Positions 4,806 through 57,653 of a DNA stretch of 64,000 bases are shown here, piece after piece. This DNA comes from Deltaproteobacteria bacterium (GTDB taxonomy: Bacteria; Desulfobacterota; GWC2-55-46): contig JACPGB010000028.1 in NCBI GenBank assembly GCA_016182655.1, positions 1-64,000 of the forward strand, written 5' to 3'. Positions within the stretch are counted from its first letter, which is position 1. Every line of letters starts with the position of its first letter. The notes under the pieces are model-generated. The model was not told the DNA's origin. It was given only the letters and a program-made list of their open reading frames with translations, and made no database searches. Both the position numbers and the translations under genes were made by a program.

Positions 4806-4930
4806 CAGGCTGTTCAAAAAGCTCCAGATGCGAGGCGTCGAGGAGCGAGACCGTGAGGCGTACTTTAGTATGTACGCCGCAACGGCGAGAGACGAAGACA
4901 ACAAAGCAGATGGACTTTTTGGGCAGCCTG
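4806..4930. repeat. Family A hairpin repeat, copy 1
   Basis: Terminal inverted repeat CAGGCTGttcAAAAAG / CTTTTTgggCAGCCTG with an internal gaggcgtact..gtacgccgc hairpin; homologous to 7277-7397 and 27589-27712. Confidence 0.9.
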
Positions 4931-7227: not shown

Positions 7228-7276
7228 CTGTTCCTCCGAAAGTTACTCTTGTATAGATAAACTAAATGCGCCAATT

Positions 7277-7397
7277 CAGGCTTCAAATAAGCTCCAGATG
7301 CGAGGCGTCGAGGAGCGAGACGCGAGGCGTACTCAGTTTGTACGCCGCAACGGCTCGCTTTGAGGCCAACAAAGCAGATGGACTTATTTCAAGCCTG
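7277..7397. repeat. Family A hairpin repeat, copy 2
   Basis: CAGGCTTcAAATAAG / CTTATTTcAAGCCTG arms; interior homologous to copy 1, same orientation. Confidence 0.9.
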
Positions 7398-27588: not shown

Positions 27589-27712
27589 CAGGCTGCTGAA
27601 AAAGTCCATCTGCTTCGTTGTCTTCGGCGCTCGTAACTGCGGCGTACATACAAAAGTACGCCTCGTTCCTCGCTTCTCGACGCCTCGCATCTGGAGCTTT
27701 TTGAGCAGCCTG
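27589..27712. repeat. Family A hairpin repeat, copy 3 (inverted)
   Basis: caggctgctgaaaaagtccatctg...ctcgacgcctcgcatctggagctttttgagcagcctg; reverse complement of copy 1. Confidence 0.9.
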
Positions 27713-27733
27713 AACAAAATTCTGTATCCCTGA

Positions 27734-42420: not shown

Positions 42421-42730
42421 GACCTCCCCTCCTAACCGGTATTTTTTCCGCACCCTTGCTCTTTTGTTTATCCGCTTTGTCGACACCGCCCTGTACGGTC
42501 GTAAGCTTATATGTAACTCGATACGCTTTGCGGGTTCAGTTTTGTAAACTGAACCCATTAATTCGTAACTCGATATACGCCCGTCCGGCTTTATTCGAAC
42601 CCTCTGCCAAAAGCCTTTTGCGTTCAGCGTATGTATGCGCCTTTTTGGGGTGTATTGTACTGTTTTCATTTTCGCCCTGCCGGGCTTTTTTTCGGCATGG
42701 GGCTTCGCTCCCTCCGCCCTCCCCCTCCCC

Positions 42731-43129: not shown

Positions 43130-43350
43130 TCTTCTTTACAAACACACGGGCGCATGGCGGAGAGCGCATAGGGGAGGGAGAGGCGAGCGCACCGGGGTAG
43201 ATTAGACGCTTGCGCTCGGCGCGTTAACAACCGGGGAATCTGCGCGCAAGGGGTGCGCGAGCGGGCGGGGGAGGAAGGAAGCGCTTGGAGCCATCGCCGA
43301 AAGCGCGCGGAGCGCGCAAAAGGGCTTCAGGCAGAGGATTCGAATAAAGC
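43130..43350 (+). repeat. Family E intergenic repeat, copy 1
   Basis: acaaacacacgggcgcatggcggagagcgc...ggcgggggaggaaggaagcgc...gcgcgcggagcgcgcaaaagggcttcaggcagaggattcgaata shared with reverse complement of 51955-52130. Confidence 0.8.
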
Positions 43351-43555
43351 AAGACGAGTGCATATCGAGTTAGACGGAAAACACGAAATCCGTTTCGGCT
43401 TCCATCCGGTCGGAATTCTCGACCTGAGGCTTGGGGGAGTCAGGCCTAAGTTAACCAAAATGTAACCTATGTCCATAGGTTAAAATGTAACCCATGTGCA
43501 TGTTGCACAAAAAACGCGACAAGCCGCGGGATATTAGGCCCTGAGAGAGAAAATA

Positions 43556-43585
43556 AAAAGCCCCCGTCGCTTGCGCAACGGGGGC
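43556..43585 (-). terminator. Intrinsic terminator of TPR gene
   Basis: gcccccgt-cgcttgcgca-acgggggc with minus-strand T-rich tail. Confidence 0.75.
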
Positions 43586-43604
43586 CGGAACATTCTTTAA
43601 TAAA

Positions 43605-44039
43605 TCAATGCGCGAGCCGTACCGCCAACATCCCAAGGAACCTGTTTACAGAGCTCTGTCTCGGGAGGAACCCTATTACAGGTTTCCTTCTGAGCCCCAG
43701 CCCCTTCATCTCCTGAAGGAGGGCTCTGTTGTCGTTGTCGAACTTCAGCCCCTTCCTGAAGGCCCGGACCGCAACGGATTTCTGTCCGTTAAGGATGAAT
43801 ATCCTTCCCAGGTTCAGGTATATCTCCGGGTTGTAAAACTCCCTTTCAGCCGCCATGAGGCAGAGGGATATTGCCTTGTCGTAGTTTCCCTCTTCTGTTG
43901 CGAGGCACAAAGCGTAATAAGACATCGCCGTAGGGTGTTGCGTGAAGCAGAGGTCCTCGTCGAATACCCCGAGCGCTTCCCGATAGCGCCCGTCTCTTGC
44001 CAGCCCCATCCCCTTTTCGATCAAATCGCTTGTCTCCAT
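43605..44039 (-). CDS. TPR-repeat protein
   Basis: ALCLATEEGNYDKAISLCLMAAEREFYNPEIYLNLGRIFILNGQKSVAVRAFRKGLKFDNDNRALLQEM. Confidence 0.82.
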   Translation of the reverse strand: METSDLIEKGMGLARDGRYREALGVFDEDLCFTQHPTAMSYYALCLATEEGNYDKAISLCLMAAEREFYNPEIYLNLGRIFILNGQKSVAVRAFRKGLKFDNDNRALLQEMKGLGLRRKPVIGFLPRQSSVNRFLGMLAVRLAH

Positions 44040-44303: not shown

Positions 44304-46973
44304 TTACTGGAGTCTTATATCGGTCTCAAGTGCCTTGTTTTCAGGGCCGTAGACTACTTTCAAGCGCCCGCCCTCGTCGACTGAAAGGGTTACCTCGGTC
44401 GAGCCCTGTATCGGATTATTAAACGGGAGCGAGACCGTCCGCATGCCCTCGAGACCCAAGCCCGCGATCTCCCTTATCTCCTGCTTGAGGAACTCGATGC
44501 CGCCTTCCAGTGTCCACCTCCTGGCGATGAGCCCCTCGGGGACCTCGAAAAGCTCGAGCGTCATCTCGCTCTGCTCACCCAACTTCCTCGCCGGGGCGAC
44601 CGAGAAAGTCTTCTCCAGCGGAAGGGTCTCCCCCTTCTCGAGGACTATGCAGTAGGAGTGCGTCTCTTCCTTGCCCGCGGGCGCGTACCTTACGGCGTAG
44701 GCCAGACCCAGGTGCCTGTCGGTTATGTCCTTCGTCGCGTAGAGCGCCGCGCCGGAGGCCACGGCTGACAGGGGGCTATGGTCGTATATGGCGTTCTCTT
44801 TCCTCAACCTGGGGAAGAGGTCCCCTATCTTGGCCTTGAAGGACGGTATCTGCGAGGAACCCCCTGTAAGGAGGACCGCCTCAAGCCTCTCCTTTTTGAC
44901 GCCGACCTTCTCGGCCCTTCTGAGCACGTACGAGACCGTCCTGTCTATGAACTTATAGAACTCGTTCCTCTCGAGCACCTCTTCGAATTCGGTCCTCGTT
45001 ACGCGCGCGACCTCTCGCCCCTCCCACTCGAACGGGACCTCGTCCTTGTCCGACAACGCTATCTTTATGTGCTCGGCCTTGTGTATGAGCCTGTACGGCA
45101 GGTTCTCGGCCTCAAGGCCGATCATGCCGGCAAGGTGGCGCGCGAGCCAGATGTCGATATCATGCCCGCCAAGCAACTGCGCTCGCTCGGGCTTCGATAC
45201 GACATGGACCTCCTTGAGGTTCAGCCTTAAGACCATCGTGTTCAGGGTCGAGCCGCCGAAGTCTATGAGCATGACGACCTTGTCCCTCTCCTCCACGACC
45301 TGGTAGCCGACGGCCGCGGCAAGGGGCTCCTCTATGAACTCGACCTTCGAGCCCTTCATGTGGCGCGCGGCGATTCCCGAGAGCGCGGCCTTGTAGTCCT
45401 GATAGCCGATCGGCACCGTGATGTAGATCGTCTCGGCGACGCTCTTCGTCCCGAACGGGAGCCAGCCGCCGGGGACCGTGGCCTTACGCAGGTGCTGGGA
45501 GAGGAGTTTCAGGAACCTCTCCATGTAGTCCCTGCCCCTGGCGTTGCCCTCAAGGAGCATCTGCTTTATGTTGACTATCGGGTTCTCCTCGGCGACCTCC
45601 GTCCCGATGTTGTTCGTCTCGGCGCTTAAGACCGTAGGCACGACGAGCGTGCCGTCGCTGTAGCGCCTCGTTATCATCGGGAGCGGCAGGAACTCCGGGT
45701 CGGCCCCCCTGCCGCCGGCCCTCCTCCTCATGATGACGGTGTTAGTCGCGCCGAGGTCTATGGCGATGGTGTCGCCGGCGGACTCCGTCTTCCTCTGTAT
45801 GTAGCGCCCCTGCCCGTCCGGGTTCCGCTCCTTTACGAAGAGCGGCCTTTCTATCTCCCGGCCGTGGTAAGTCTTCTCGAGCGTGACGAGGCGGTCGACG
45901 ACTTTCCTTACCGCATCGCGGAGCCCCTTCGGCTGTACCCATACGTGGGTATACGGCTTCAAAATCTCTATGAACCGCGTGTCGTTGAGTTTTGTCCCGA
46001 ACTTCTCGATCTCGGTTGCGAGTGTCGTCGCGTACTTCTCCCTGGTGAACCGCTTCTGCTTCGACTCCTTCATCCCGAGCTCCTCGGCCGAAAGGATGAA
46101 GTCGACGACGTCGAGCACCTCGACGTCGCCCATCCACTTCTTTACGGTAAAAAATGAGAGCGCCTGCTCGACGGCTTCCTTGAGAATGGGGAAGAACTCG
46201 GGGGTCTTGGGCAGGACCTGTATCATCTCGATGAGGTTGTACTCCCTGGCGAACGGGTCTGTCGAGTCCGTAGCGGCCTTGAATGCGCCCCTCATGGCCT
46301 CGACGCGGAGCTCCGCGCAGCCCTCGACCGCCTTCAGCTCCTCGGCAATGAAAAGCATGGCGTACTTCCTGTAATAGGGCTCGGTAAGTATGCCTATGGC
46401 CTCCATCGCCCGCCTGACGCCATCTTTGTAGACGTCGAGGAACGCTCCGTCCTTGGGCATCGCCTTCGCGATCCCGAGCAGAGTGTACCTCCTGTAGAAG
46501 TCCTCGTCGCTCGCCTTCGGGAGGTCCTTGGCGACGAGCTCTATCGCCCTGTCCTTAAGCCTCGGCTTGTCGGCGAGCCCGAGCGCGAGCCTCCACGCGC
46601 GGACCCTCGACGGCAGAAACTCCGCGGTCTTCGGCATCTCGTTTGCGAGCTTCATGAGCTCGGTCGTCCTGTACTGGTGCTCATCGAGGGAGTCGGCGGC
46701 GTTTATGGCCTCGTCGACGGCGTCGGCGTAAAAGGGGCGGAAGAGCTCGGTATTGGGGAGTTCCTTTATATAGTCGAGGACGGCCTTCCTCTTTTCAGAC
46801 GGGTCGCCGACCTTGTCGATCAGTTCGTAGGCGAGCTTGAAGAGCACGAGAGCGTCGGCGCTCTTCGGGAGTTCCCGGACCGCCTTCATGAGGACGCCCC
46901 TTAACGGCTCGTCAAAGGCCGAGCCGTCCCTAACTGCGTAGAGCGCCTGTCTTGCCTTTTCCAGATCCGTCAT
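44304..46973 (-). CDS. Hsp70-family protein with about 330-aa helical N-terminal extension
   Basis: TIAIDLGATNTVIMRR, MLIDFGGSTLNTMVLRL, AVLLTGGSSQIPSFKAKI (Hsp70 ATPase motifs) after a long alpha-helical N-terminus. Confidence 0.9.
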   Translation of the reverse strand: MTDLEKARQALYAVRDGSAFDEPLRGVLMKAVRELPKSADALVLFKLAYELIDKVGDPSEKRKAVLDYIKELPNTELFRPFYADAVDEAINAADSLDEHQYRTTELMKLANEMPKTAEFLPSRVRAWRLALGLADKPRLKDRAIELVAKDLPKASDEDFYRRYTLLGIAKAMPKDGAFLDVYKDGVRRAMEAIGILTEPYYRKYAMLFIAEELKAVEGCAELRVEAMRGAFKAATDSTDPFAREYNLIEMIQVLPKTPEFFPILKEAVEQALSFFTVKKWMGDVEVLDVVDFILSAEELGMKESKQKRFTREKYATTLATEIEKFGTKLNDTRFIEILKPYTHVWVQPKGLRDAVRKVVDRLVTLEKTYHGREIERPLFVKERNPDGQGRYIQRKTESAGDTIAIDLGATNTVIMRRRAGGRGADPEFLPLPMITRRYSDGTLVVPTVLSAETNNIGTEVAEENPIVNIKQMLLEGNARGRDYMERFLKLLSQHLRKATVPGGWLPFGTKSVAETIYITVPIGYQDYKAALSGIAARHMKGSKVEFIEEPLAAAVGYQVVEERDKVVMLIDFGGSTLNTMVLRLNLKEVHVVSKPERAQLLGGHDIDIWLARHLAGMIGLEAENLPYRLIHKAEHIKIALSDKDEVPFEWEGREVARVTRTEFEEVLERNEFYKFIDRTVSYVLRRAEKVGVKKERLEAVLLTGGSSQIPSFKAKIGDLFPRLRKENAIYDHSPLSAVASGAALYATKDITDRHLGLAYAVRYAPAGKEETHSYCIVLEKGETLPLEKTFSVAPARKLGEQSEMTLELFEVPEGLIARRWTLEGGIEFLKQEIREIAGLGLEGMRTVSLPFNNPIQGSTEVTLSVDEGGRLKVVYGPENKALETDIRLQ

Positions 46974-47542
46974 CTGCCGAAACCCGCCCTGAAGGGGACC
47001 CTGCTGAACCCCGTCTCGACTATCGACCCGTCCTTCTTTATCGTCACTTCGACCTTGCCGTCCATGATGAAGTCTTCTTTGGAATATCTATTGGTGAGAA
47101 AGTGGAATCCCTGGTTGCTCGAGCCCCGCGCAAGGAGCGTGGGTTCTTTCTCGGTTTCGATGAACGGCCCGTCCACGAGGACGTCTATGTATTTCAACGC
47201 TTCTCGCGCGGCCTCTATCTTATTCAACTCCTCTATCGTGTAGCCGGTGTATACGATGGTGGAAAGAGAGCGCTCTCTCGCGGCTTTCAGGAGAAGGATG
47301 AGCCCTTCGGTCTGGGCGAACGGCTCACCGCCGCTTACGGTAATGCCCTCGACCGGGGTCTGTATCCGTTCGAATATCCCATCGATCGGGAGGAACTCCT
47401 TTATCCCGAACGAATGCGTCTCCGGGTTGAAGCACCCGCCGCACAGGCGCGCGCACCCCTGGAAAAATACGACGAGGCGCGCGCCGGGGCCGTTCACTCG
47501 CGACGACGGTATTACGGCGTGTATGTTCAACTGTGTCTTCAT
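46970..47542 (-). CDS. 4Fe-4S single-domain radical SAM (NrdG/activase-like) protein
   Basis: VVFFQGCARLCGGCFNPETH (CxxxCxxC-like), GITVSGGEPFAQ; 4-bp overlap with Hsp70 gene. Confidence 0.88.
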   Translation of the reverse strand: MKTQLNIHAVIPSSRVNGPGARLVVFFQGCARLCGGCFNPETHSFGIKEFLPIDGIFERIQTPVEGITVSGGEPFAQTEGLILLLKAARERSLSTIVYTGYTIEELNKIEAAREALKYIDVLVDGPFIETEKEPTLLARGSSNQGFHFLTNRYSKEDFIMDGKVEVTIKKDGSIVETGFSRVPFRAGFGR

Positions 47543-47585
47543 TGTATTATGGTCTTCGGATAGGCCGTGAAGGGCTGGAGAGTAG

Positions 47586-47768
47586 TCAGTCGGAATCCAC
47601 CTTGAGCTTTATCTCCCTCTCGAAGACCTCGTCCTTCTCGGTAAAACTCTCCATCTCTCCCAATACCTTCGTCAGGTGGTCGGCGACATCCTTGCAGTCC
47701 TTGTAGATAGTGGAGTCTATCTCGACCCTGCCGTCGGCTGTGATCCTTATCTTTATCTGTCTGTCCAT
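47586..47768 (-). CDS. DUF2997-family protein
   Basis: RQIKIRITADGRVEIDSTIYKDCKDVADHLTKVLGEM. Confidence 0.75.
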   Translation of the reverse strand: MDRQIKIRITADGRVEIDSTIYKDCKDVADHLTKVLGEMESFTEKDEVFEREIKLKVDSD

Positions 47769-47792
47769 CGGGGCGCTCTCCTTTCGGCGGCC

Positions 47793-48131
47793 TTAACCCT
47801 TGAGCAGTATCTGTATCTCGCCTGAGGTCTCCGTCTCCTTCGATATCTCGAAGTCGAGCGGCAGGTTGTCCTTTATCGACTCGTAGGCGTAAATCTGTTT
47901 TAATCTGTCCGAGAACCTGTTTACGACCCTATTGTCTCCGCCGACCTGGTAATTGCCGGACTTCTCCTGCGAGAGCGTTATCATGTCGCCGTCCCTGTCG
48001 ACCTCTATCTCCTCTTTCCTGTCGTTCTTGACGAAGTTCGTTATCTCGCCGCGCTTCTTTAACTCCTCGAGCGCCGCGATCAGGTATTTCTTGCTGGAGA
48101 GCTGTGTCTTTATTACCGTATAGAAGGACAT
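47793..48131 (-). CDS. DUF1257 (Ycf35-like) protein
   Basis: MSFYTVIKTQLSSKKYLIAALEELK...NYQVGGDNRVVNRFSDRLKQIYAYE. Confidence 0.78.
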   Translation of the reverse strand: MSFYTVIKTQLSSKKYLIAALEELKKRGEITNFVKNDRKEEIEVDRDGDMITLSQEKSGNYQVGGDNRVVNRFSDRLKQIYAYESIKDNLPLDFEISKETETSGEIQILLKG

Positions 48132-48223
48132 TGAGACCTCCTTGATGGCTCCGCGCCGGATTATAATGACAGCCCCGGGCGGGTACCTGTTACGCTACGC
48201 CTGGACCCAAACAGCCCCGGCCC

Positions 48224-50359
48224 CTACTCTACCGGGTTCTCCTTGAAAAACTTCATGATGGCGTCGCCGTTCATCAGGACCTCTTTCGAGAGCCTCTCCA
48301 CGAAGGACATGAGGACGTCCTTGTTCCTCGAGATTATCCCGGCAGAGACCTCCTTGGCGGAGTCCAGTATCTTCTGGATGTCGTCCAGGACTTCGCTGCC
48401 GGAAGTCAACGCGAAGTCCTGTAGCACCACGAGGGATTTGTTCCTCATTATATCGCCGAAGCCGTACTCGACGACCATCCTCTTGGCTATATGGGTCGCC
48501 TGTATGAGGTCGTGGGACGCGCCTACGGTCTTGGAGTCGCCGCCTATGAGCTCGTCCTCGGCTACCATGCCCCCGAGTATCACGCCTATTTCCTTTTCGA
48601 GGTCCTTTTTCGTGAACGTCGTCCTTATGGCCTCATCCACCGGTATGTAGGCGCTGAAGTTCTTATAGTTGTCCACGGAGACGAAGGCCGGGGTCTTGTT
48701 GAAGTGTATCTTCATGAGTATGCAGTGGCCCGCCTCGTGTATGGCGATGTTCTTCTTCTCGTAGTCGGTAAGGGACTCCGCCCTCTGGAGGAAGAGGGAC
48801 TTGGAAGCCGGACGCGCCCTCTGGTGGCTCCAGGTGCGGAGCTCCTCTATCTCCTCTTTTTTCAAGACCGAAAGGGGCGTTATGTGCCTTATCGCGGAAA
48901 GGAGCGCATCCTGCGTGACATCGAGGGCAAGTAGCCCGTCGATCATGTCCTCGACCTCCTTGGAGGACTCTCCGCCGTGGAGGTTGTTGAAGGTGGTGAC
49001 GACGGCGTCCTTTACCGCCTGCTCGATCTCTGCGCCGGTGAAGCCCTGGCTGTTCTGCGCGAGCTCGCGGAGGTTGAGCCTGTTCATGTTCTGGATGCGC
49101 CTTTCGAGGTGGATCCTGTATATCTCCTCCCGCTCTTCCTGGCTGGGGAGATCGACGAAGAAGACCTCGTCGTACCTGCCCTTTCTCCAGAGCTCGGGCG
49201 GGAGGTTCTTGGGCTCGTTGGCGGTCGATATGACGAAGACCGGGTTCTCTTTTTCCTGCAACCATGTAATGAAAGTGCCGAAGACCCTCATCTGCGTGCC
49301 GGAGTCGCCCTGATAGCCGCCGATGCCGCCGAATGCCTTGTCTATCTCGTCTATCCAGAGTATGCAGGGGCTCACCGCCTCCGCAAGCTGTATGCACCTT
49401 CTGATGTTTTTCTCGGATTCACCGACCGTTGAGCCGAAGAGGCGGCCCACGTCGAGCCTGAGTAACGGCAGGTTCCAGATGCCCGCGAGCGCCTTGCAAC
49501 ATAAGCTCTTGCCGGAACCTGGCACGCCTATCAGAAGGAGGCCCTTGGGGATGTCGAGCCCGAGGGTCGATATCTTGTCCTTTGAGAGGCGGAAGACGTG
49601 CTCCCTTTCGACGAACCACTTCTTTATTTCAGAGAGTCCGCCGATGTTCTCGATGGTCTCCCTGTGCGGGTAGTAGTCGAGTATCCTCTGCTTCTTTATT
49701 ATCTGCTGTTTTTCGTCCTGTATGTAGGAGATGCAGTCTTCGTTAAGGAAGCCGTTGTTGAGGCTTATGGCCTTCCTTATGACCCTCCTTACGTTGTCCA
49801 TGGAAAGGCCCTGGAGTGACTTGTACAGGATGGAGCGGGTCGCGGCGTGCCATTTCTCGGGGATCAAGTGGCCGTAGGTCGTGGAGACCATCTCGGCTAT
49901 CTCGTCGTAGTCGGGCAGAGATAGTTCAAGGACGACCATGTCCTCTTCGAGCTCCGGCGGTATCTCGCTTAAGGTCGGAGAGAGTATGCAGACGGTGTTG
50001 AGGGTGTGGCGCTCGTCCATGATCGTTGGCAAATCCCTGAATTTTCTAAGGAATTCGTGGGAGTTGAAGTAGCTGGCAATGTCTTTTAAAAGGAATATGT
50101 TATTGGTGTTCTCGCCTTTGGTTATCTTCTCTTCGATGGTGGAGAGTATCTTCTCCTTCCCCATCTGCTCCCGTTTCTTCTTCTCGCCCCCATATAAGCC
50201 CCTCGATACGGACCAGGACCAGAAGGTGAACTTCATCGACTCGGAAAGGGACTCGATTATCCGCTCGACCCTTCTTTCCTCGAAAGAGACGAGCCAGAGG
50301 ATAGGATACCTCGCCTCCATGTGTATCCTTATCTCGTTTTCGAAGTCTTTGGTCTTCAT
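48224..50359 (-). CDS. Ycf46/FtsH-like AAA+ ATPase with M41-type metallopeptidase domain
   Basis: Walker A GVPGSGKS, Walker B CILWIDEIDKAFGG, zinc motif AIHEAGHCILMKIHF and downstream GASHDLIQATHIAKRMV like FtsH; no TM segment; Ycf46-like N-terminus. Confidence 0.9.
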   Translation of the reverse strand: MKTKDFENEIRIHMEARYPILWLVSFEERRVERIIESLSESMKFTFWSWSVSRGLYGGEKKKREQMGKEKILSTIEEKITKGENTNNIFLLKDIASYFNSHEFLRKFRDLPTIMDERHTLNTVCILSPTLSEIPPELEEDMVVLELSLPDYDEIAEMVSTTYGHLIPEKWHAATRSILYKSLQGLSMDNVRRVIRKAISLNNGFLNEDCISYIQDEKQQIIKKQRILDYYPHRETIENIGGLSEIKKWFVEREHVFRLSKDKISTLGLDIPKGLLLIGVPGSGKSLCCKALAGIWNLPLLRLDVGRLFGSTVGESEKNIRRCIQLAEAVSPCILWIDEIDKAFGGIGGYQGDSGTQMRVFGTFITWLQEKENPVFVISTANEPKNLPPELWRKGRYDEVFFVDLPSQEEREEIYRIHLERRIQNMNRLNLRELAQNSQGFTGAEIEQAVKDAVVTTFNNLHGGESSKEVEDMIDGLLALDVTQDALLSAIRHITPLSVLKKEEIEELRTWSHQRARPASKSLFLQRAESLTDYEKKNIAIHEAGHCILMKIHFNKTPAFVSVDNYKNFSAYIPVDEAIRTTFTKKDLEKEIGVILGGMVAEDELIGGDSKTVGASHDLIQATHIAKRMVVEYGFGDIMRNKSLVVLQDFALTSGSEVLDDIQKILDSAKEVSAGIISRNKDVLMSFVERLSKEVLMNGDAIMKFFKENPVE

Positions 50360-50502: not shown

Positions 50503-50537
50503 CAACAAAAAAAGAGGCGCATCTCTCGCGCCTCTTT
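50503..50537 (-). terminator. Intrinsic terminator of DUF1328 gene
   Basis: aaagaggcgc-atctctc-gcgcctcttt with minus-strand T run. Confidence 0.8.
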
Positions 50538-57437: not shown

Positions 57438-57653
57438 GGTCCTCGCCGGACGGGCAGACCCGTATCCGGCGGCTTTGCCTCATGGAGTTGGAGTAGCCTG
57501 GTTTGAAATTGGGCCCCGCGCCGAGCGGTCCTCGCCGGACGGGCAGACCTCAGATCTGACGATGATGGGATCAATATGTCAAAGGGCTCCGTTTCTGAAA
57601 ACTGGCCCCGCGCCGAGCGGTCCTCGCCGGACGGGCAGACCAGTATCCGGCGG
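57438..57653 (-). repeat. Family B tandem array (two full units plus a partial)
   Basis: Three copies of ggtcctcgccggacgggcagacc at about 91-92 bp spacing, alternating with gcccc(g)cgccgagc and variable 45-46 nt cores. Confidence 0.92.

Follow-up and report, generated by a model that had tools for sequence, protein, structure and literature searches.

A conserved bacterial operon linking a soluble AAA+-M41 protein, DUF1257, DUF2997, a radical SAM protein and a solenoid-bearing Hsp70: a candidate protein quality-control machine

Introduction

FtsH ternary (MoxR-vWA) conflict systems are the nearest described systems to the locus analyzed here, the likeness of the ATPases being drawn from their published description (PMC7159879). 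These systems, whose defining genes are MoxR and vWA, comprise a tandem AAA protein with an inactive first copy, a radical SAM protein, and a large all-helical domain on a partner protein (Kaur et al. 2020, PMC7159879). From cyanobacteria, a gene cluster has been described in which DUF2997, ycf35 (DUF1257) and fed7, the gene of the ferredoxin Fed7, lie side by side (PMC4284462).

Our analysis is based on a window of 64,000 nucleotides from a Deltaproteobacteria bacterium (assembly GCA_016182655.1, contig JACPGB010000028.1, positions 1 to 64,000), which contains an operon of five genes. Two of its products belong to DUF1257 and DUF2997, to which, to our knowledge, no function has been assigned; likewise, we know of no role for Ycf35 and Ycf46, which are kept in algal plastids. 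In the open-access papers on DUF1257 or DUF2997 that we searched, we found no link to an Hsp70 or an AAA protease, and a search of the open-access literature, outside which most subscription papers lie, for the combination returned the conflict-system paper only (PMC7159879). The parts of the operon are known; their combination, and the presence of an M41 peptidase on this ATPase, appear to be new.

Results

Organization of the locus

The operon comprises the genes for an AAA-M41 protein, DUF1257, DUF2997, a radical SAM protein and an Hsp70, in this order, on the minus strand (44304-50359; Table 1). A preliminary description, made from the sequence alone, had reported five tightly packed reading frames of which the last two overlap by 4 bp, and all five were recovered at the same positions: the intergenic gaps are 92, 24 and 43 bp, followed by the overlap of the radical SAM and Hsp70 genes (46970-46973). 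No J-domain gene is present in the operon. The small TPR gene downstream adjoins the Hsp70 gene in many relatives, has the opposite orientation in two and is missing from others. The transcript may include this gene, because the next strong hairpin comes only after it, a weak indication given that the hairpin scan hardly exceeds the shuffled expectation.

Table 1. Features of the operon and its products (positions refer to the window; residue numbers in brackets)
Feature	Position	Strand	Basis
AAA+ ATPase fused to M41 peptidase, gene 1, 711 aa	48224..50359	-	PF00004 9.7e-31, PF01434 3e-19
N-domain (1-232), probable inactive first AAA domain without P-loop	49664..50359	-	profile of 67 relatives
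Walker A GVPGSGKS (278-285)	49505..49528	-	invariant in 13 orthologues
Pore loop FGSTVGES (308-315), Thr in place of the usual aromatic	49415..49438	-	orthologue alignment
Walker B ILWIDE (333-338)	49346..49363	-	invariant in orthologues
M41 peptidase domain (about 520-711)	48227..48802	-	PF01434 and solved-structure profile search
HEAGH zinc-binding motif (541-545)	48725..48739	-	invariant in 13 orthologues
GASHD, probable third zinc ligand D617	48509..48523	-	aligned to FtsH GAxxD; Asp invariant in 13 orthologues
Divergent DUF1257 protein (Ycf35-related), 112 aa	47793..48131	-	remote match via profile searches
DUF2997 protein, 60 aa	47586..47768	-	PF11211 matched by 12/12 orthologues
Activase-type radical SAM protein, 190 aa	46970..47542	-	PF13353 4.1e-33, PF04055 1.3e-7
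CxxxCxxC cluster motif (C30, C34, C37)	47432..47455	-	invariant in 11 orthologues
Hsp70 with N-terminal alpha-solenoid, 889 aa	44304..46973	-	PF00012 3e-20
Alpha-solenoid (1 to about 370), repeats of about 38-40 residues	45864..46973	-	AlphaFold2 model, self-profile comparison
Hsp70 nucleotide-binding domain (about 400-750)	44724..45776	-	PF00012 3e-20 and solved-structure profile match
Beta-rich C-terminal domain, probable lid-less substrate-binding beta domain	44307..44636	-	model with eight strands; Foldseek
Small TPR protein, possible sixth gene	43605..44039	-	downstream of Hsp70 gene, same strand, in many relatives
Terminator-like hairpin upstream of operon	50511..50537	-	hairpin scan; total not above shuffled expectation
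Terminator-like hairpin past TPR gene	43559..43586	-	hairpin scan; total not above shuffled expectation

An inverted repeat of 54 bp (42566-42619 and 43319-43372; 83% complementary, arms 699 bp apart) lies on the downstream side of the operon region. Short intergenic repeats of about 35-128 bp, 78-97% identical, are dispersed across the window, with copies at 4806-4930, 7274-7397 and 27589-27714, with the pairs 43121-43190/52062-52131 and 15612-15702/51018-51107, and with a further site at 57438-57653.

Conservation of the operon in close relatives

The preliminary description had made its functional reading depend on conserved co-occurrence of these genes, and the neighbourhood is indeed conserved. 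The AAA-M41 protein has public relatives of 75-99% identity, and all 16 with long enough contigs possess the five genes in the same order; six further loci run off the contig end and were left out of this count. Loci from GTDB and NCBI were kept as separate sets, some of them representing the same organism. At one locus (L009), about 2.6 kb are inserted ahead of the radical SAM gene, and at two others (L013, L014) the Hsp70 frames are broken, perhaps through assembly errors. The DUF1257 marker was detected in 42 of the 59 genomes of the whole sample. In the family of the window, all 20 genomes with a completeness of 90% or more contain it, in single copy; hence, the operon behaves like a core operon passed on vertically in this family.

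The AAA-M41 protein

The first gene product had been described as a soluble, Ycf46/FtsH-like AAA+ protein with intact Walker motifs and an M41-like HEAGH plus GASHD region. Walker A and Walker B are intact and invariant in 13 orthologues, as are HEAGH and D617, and the Pfam model of M41 (PF01434) covers residues 530-696 (3e-19). The M41 fold of the C-terminal domain was upheld by a profile search of solved structures, which returned FtsH-type peptidases only; in these alignments, HEAGH and the Asp of GASHD match the zinc site of FtsH. Furthermore, the protein lacks a membrane segment, as had been proposed: its maximal 19-residue hydropathy is 1.27, and the genome's two FtsH proteins reach 2.45 and 2.65.

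What is different is the ATPase. The AAA tree sets the AAA core apart from the FtsH proteins of its own genome, at full support and on long branches. The ATPase is part of a clade linked to DUF1257, the other members of which lack a protease. On this tree, the M41-bearing proteins group together, all 26 rows with a support of 62 and 25 of them with 98, and the fusion to M41 has a single origin, i.e. one change. The FtsH equivalog model scores the protein at 172, with a cut-off of 600. The pore loop reads FGSTVGES, compared to MFVGVGAS in the genome's own FtsH proteins. At the aromatic position of this loop, all M41-bearing members possess Thr, the DUF1257-linked members without M41 mostly Leu, and relatives where no DUF1257 was seen mostly Tyr. 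Because the pore aromatic is missing, a simple FtsH-like threading is disfavoured, and the protein may have a role in processing. The label "FtsH-like" therefore holds for the peptidase domain but not for the ATPase, which forms a separate clade, has another pore loop and lacks the membrane segment, and tree, hydropathy, pore loop and model score led us to reject an ordinary FtsH paralogue.

These results also bear on the simplest explanation of the locus, according to which an ordinary FtsH paralogue happens to lie beside unrelated genes with no joint function. M41 and AAA folds are indeed common to FtsH; however, given the position of the AAA core in the tree, the low FtsH model score, and a linkage that is kept throughout an order and found again, in M41-free form, in other phyla, we regard such a chance neighbourhood as very improbable.

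The N-domain was compared with the AAA domain by means of profiles. A profile of 67 relatives matches it to the latter half of the AAA domain with a probability of 88% (E 2.9e-6, one comparison); the signal appears only with this diverse set, and the focal sequences alone gave none. On account of this alignment, a tandem AAA protein with a dead first copy is the best description, and the N-domain is probably a first AAA domain that is inactive and has no P-loop. Relatives from cyanobacteria, about 501 aa long and none of them a named Ycf46, align over residues 13-457 (37%).

The solenoid-bearing Hsp70

According to the AlphaFold2 model, the first ~370 residues of the Hsp70 are almost wholly helical, and self-profile comparison reveals internal repeats with a spacing of about 38-40 residues (E 5e-18). 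The preliminary description had the helical repeats replacing the normal Hsp70 architecture. This has to be corrected: they form an additional stretch of about 370 residues at the N-terminus, ahead of a nucleotide-binding domain, which matches solved-structure profiles at 2.4e-20 and has kept the ATP-site motifs (DLGATN 406, K470, E549, DFGG 571, TGGSSQIP 703). The closest NCBIfam Hsp70 models include the Fe-S chaperone HscA.

Past residue about 750, the profile search of solved structures gave no sequence match. With the predicted model, Foldseek finds DnaK at E 1.3e-12, and the C-terminal domain aligns to lid-less DnaK. A C-terminal helical lid is absent, the model ending in strands at 880-887. 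The model is uneven (mean pLDDT 67, pTM 0.42), with the eight C-terminal strands at low to middling confidence; provisionally, the beta-rich end is probably a lid-less substrate-binding beta domain. The genome also encodes a normal DnaK and two normal FtsH proteins.

Among nine organisms, the solenoid is the most variable part, with a mean pairwise identity of 47%, and the AAA domain of the AAA-M41 protein, compared in the same nine, is the least variable (87%). Such variation would fit client recognition by the solenoid.

DUF1257, DUF2997 and the radical SAM protein

The assignment of the second gene to DUF1257 stands as homology, reached through profile searches to bona fide DUF1257 proteins, but the relationship is remote and Pfam is blind to the window protein. 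The latter does not match PF06868, and 3/11 orthologues do (best E 0.019). Across 59 relatives, PF06868 gave no match while the orthologue profile gave 42, so the Pfam model misses this branch. The orthologue profile matches same-phylum proteins over their full length (1e-4 to 2e-6), and 12/18 members of the joint set match PF06868 (best 8.7e-32). A structural model of the protein (mean pLDDT 80), compared with PDB and viral models, found nothing better than E about 0.008, which is not interpretable. The window protein has no match in phages. For DUF2997, 12/12 orthologues match PF11211 (best 5e-5); the window protein itself scores 18.4 bits (0.002), under the curated cut-off of 24.1.

In cyanophages such as Prochlorococcus phage P-SSM2, a DUF1257 relative (L188, 5001-5381) adjoins a DUF2997-like gene near hsp20 and purM; the two phage genes sit among auxiliary genes.

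In the radical SAM protein, GGEP (71-74) is invariant in 11 orthologues, as is the cluster motif. Its score against the NrdG equivalog TIGR02491 is 115.2 bits, under the cut-off of 126.1, and its best solved relative is the pyruvate formate-lyase activating enzyme. A gene for a glycyl-radical partner was not found among the operon genes.

The module in other bacteria

AAA, DUF1257 and DUF2997 genes are linked in Planctomycetota, Cyanobacteria, Actinomycetota and Bacillus plasmids, often together with radical SAM, Hsp70, GrpE-like, HEAT or FGE proteins. This wider module is apparently undescribed. Within the phylum of the window, 13 genomes contain a remote module with DUF1257 and an AAA protein without M41; DUF2997 is found in 10/13, an Hsp70 of ~500 residues without solenoid in 11/13, and a radical SAM protein in four. 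These modules also carry a separate HEAT-repeat or FGE-sulfatase-type protein. Profile comparison detected no homology between the solenoid and the separate HEAT-repeat proteins; hence, their likeness is an analogy only. Among relatives in general, the module has the FGE-sulfatase-type protein at some loci, such as L080 (4324-6201; PF03781, 1.5e-49), L075 (2408-4267) and L147, and the HEAT-repeat protein in this place at others.

For Planctomycetota, DUF1257 loci were obtained from 15 of the 199 genomes sampled; an AAA gene is nearby in 14/15 and DUF2997 in 14/15. At L138 and L150, DUF1257 looks fused to a long upstream frame; these cases were not counted, as they overlap the AAA gene in another frame. 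At L151, from 8546, similarity to DUF1257 and DUF2997 lies in one long frame and the DUF1257 match is split over two frames, possibly a DUF1257/DUF2997 fusion with a frameshift.

In Cyanobacteria, some DUF1257 copies lie beside AAA, Hsp70 and GrpE-like genes and other copies are without AAA; on a plasmid of Pseudanabaena galeata, the annotation lists grpE, Hsp70, DUF1257, an ATP-binding protein, a hypothetical protein, DUF2997 and AAA. Actinomycete plasmids contain AAA, a hypothetical gene, DUF2997, another gene and a 4Fe-4S protein. A Bacillus licheniformis plasmid contains AAA, DUF1257 and DUF2997, with a 4Fe-4S protein about 3.4 kb off; a sample of 250 Bacillota genomes gave 2 matches, both weak and partial. 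In the genomes sampled, the M41 fusion and the solenoid-Hsp70 fusion occur only in the clade of the window and always together. Because they are confined to one clade, this pairing counts as one event.

Two further groups of ATPase relatives were observed. The Treponema succinifaciens plasmid pTRESU01 (L180, L185) has a relative with a 4Fe-4S protein, and also a DUF1257 gene, both amid genes for a contractile tail and baseplate, where the family may serve an injection-type particle. The relatives from Clostridia and Fusobacteriota (L026, L027, L030, L031) are without DUF1257 and adjoin other unknown genes, likewise conserved, whose products have about 285 and 500-590 aa; they represent a second, different module.

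The occurrence of related modules on plasmids raises the question of a conflict or anti-phage system, a function proposed earlier for NTPase ternary systems in which tandem FtsH-type AAA proteins occur along with helical proteins and radical SAM. The architecture resembles that of the FtsH ternary systems (PMC7159879), and PADLOC reported cross-hits only, among them weak ones to the defence ATPase IetA; however, the latter cover the AAA domain alone. Neither MoxR AAA+ nor vWA genes are present among the operon and flanking genes scanned. As the operon is single-copy in every near-complete genome of the family and its ATPase domain is extremely conserved, we consider a conflict system improbable.

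Discussion

These data are best read as a single soluble machine for protein quality control, driven by ATP and encoded by the operon, a reading to which we give about an even chance. A recurrent set, namely an AAA ring with two small proteins, Hsp70/GrpE and an iron-sulphur protein, argues for an ATP-driven chaperone machine. The quality-control or substrate-modifying machine of the preliminary description keeps its place, with strict gene co-occurrence behind it. The domains, the intact catalytic motifs, the conserved operon, the single origin of the M41 fusion and the core status in the family are established here; that the products form a complex, that proteins are cleaved, that clients are delivered, and the roles of the adaptors and the radical SAM protein we infer. 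Observations in favour are the strict conservation of the operon and its presence in all near-complete family genomes, the invariant AAA and M41 catalytic residues, the kept ATP site of the Hsp70, the AAA, DUF1257 and DUF2997 linkage in other phyla with Hsp70 and GrpE-like neighbours in cyanobacteria, and the same-phylum loci, where an AAA protein without M41 adjoins an Hsp70 without solenoid and a HEAT-repeat protein. Against it stand the pore loop without the threading aromatic of FtsH, the fact that gene order is no proof of a complex, and the pairing of both fusions, which is one event.

We hypothesize that the ancestor was non-proteolytic and combined a Ycf46-like tandem-AAA ATPase, its first AAA inactive, with the small proteins DUF1257 and DUF2997 and with an iron-sulphur protein, represented here by the radical SAM protein and in cyanobacteria by the ferredoxin Fed7. 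In many lineages, an Hsp70 dedicated to the module is part of it as well, at times along with a GrpE of its own and a partner made of helical repeats. In the clade of the window, an M41 zinc peptidase was fused to the ATPase, and the Hsp70 bears an alpha-solenoid. In the resulting machine, the solenoid-Hsp70 may bind and deliver chosen clients, with DUF1257 and DUF2997 as putative adaptors; the AAA ring would pull or locally unfold the client, and the M41 domain would cut it. The radical SAM protein may modify the client or a small subunit, or tie the machine to the iron or redox state.

An alternative reading is a dedicated assembly or repair machine that is not degradative, in which the AAA protein with DUF1257/DUF2997 would remodel one complex (e.g. 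an iron-sulphur or radical enzyme), the Hsp70 would hold it, and M41 would make one defined cut. A pore loop that lacks the threading aromatic and relatives of the same module that lack the protease agree with this idea, as do the activase-type radical SAM protein built into the operon and the presence of HscA among the closest Hsp70 models. The operon contains no conserved candidate target gene, however, and the catalytic residues of M41 are fully kept; we consider an assembly or repair role rather unlikely, though worth weighing.

Returning to the quality-control machine, a more specific version, which we advance as speculative and doubtful, is a separate kind of AAA+ M41 protease that is cytoplasmic and coupled to Hsp70. 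Its substrates or its adaptors, the latter perhaps DUF1257 or DUF2997, would be marked chemically by the radical SAM protein, an enzyme dedicated to this task. Degradation would accordingly depend on the iron-sulphur or redox state, and an M41-free version would exist in other bacteria and, via Ycf35 and Ycf46, in plastids.

Gene order in several phyla ties the DUF1257/Ycf35 family to Hsp70 and an iron-sulphur enzyme and, in one clade, to a protease. This provides a concrete, testable hypothesis for Ycf35, Ycf46, DUF1257 and DUF2997. In addition, the AAA-M41 protein represents a natural case of an M41 peptidase on a soluble non-FtsH ATPase.

Comparison with known systems

With FtsH/Yme1-type proteases, the AAA-M41 protein shares the order of AAA and M41, HEXXH with a third Asp ligand, and RKGR at the Arg-finger position. 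In contrast to them, it is soluble, has an extra degenerate N-terminal AAA domain, belongs to another ATPase clade with another pore loop, and lies in an operon with Hsp70 and radical SAM genes. DnaK/HscA and the DnaK-ClpB pair have in common with the operon the Hsp70 ATPase domain, a probable beta domain and an AAA partner, and in cyanobacterial versions a GrpE-like partner; the operon's Hsp70 differs in its N-terminal alpha-solenoid, the missing helical lid, and an AAA partner that is not ClpB and is fused to a peptidase. In the cyanobacterial ycf35-fed7 cluster, DUF1257 and DUF2997 likewise adjoin an iron-sulphur protein, but this is a ferredoxin and not a radical SAM protein, and the cluster is without AAA, Hsp70 and M41. 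The FtsH ternary systems share the tandem AAA with a dead first copy (88% probability for the N-domain here), the radical SAM gene and the large helical domain on a partner; unlike them, the operon lacks MoxR and vWA, possesses an Hsp70 in the place of the vWA protein, carries M41, and belongs to the core genes of its family.
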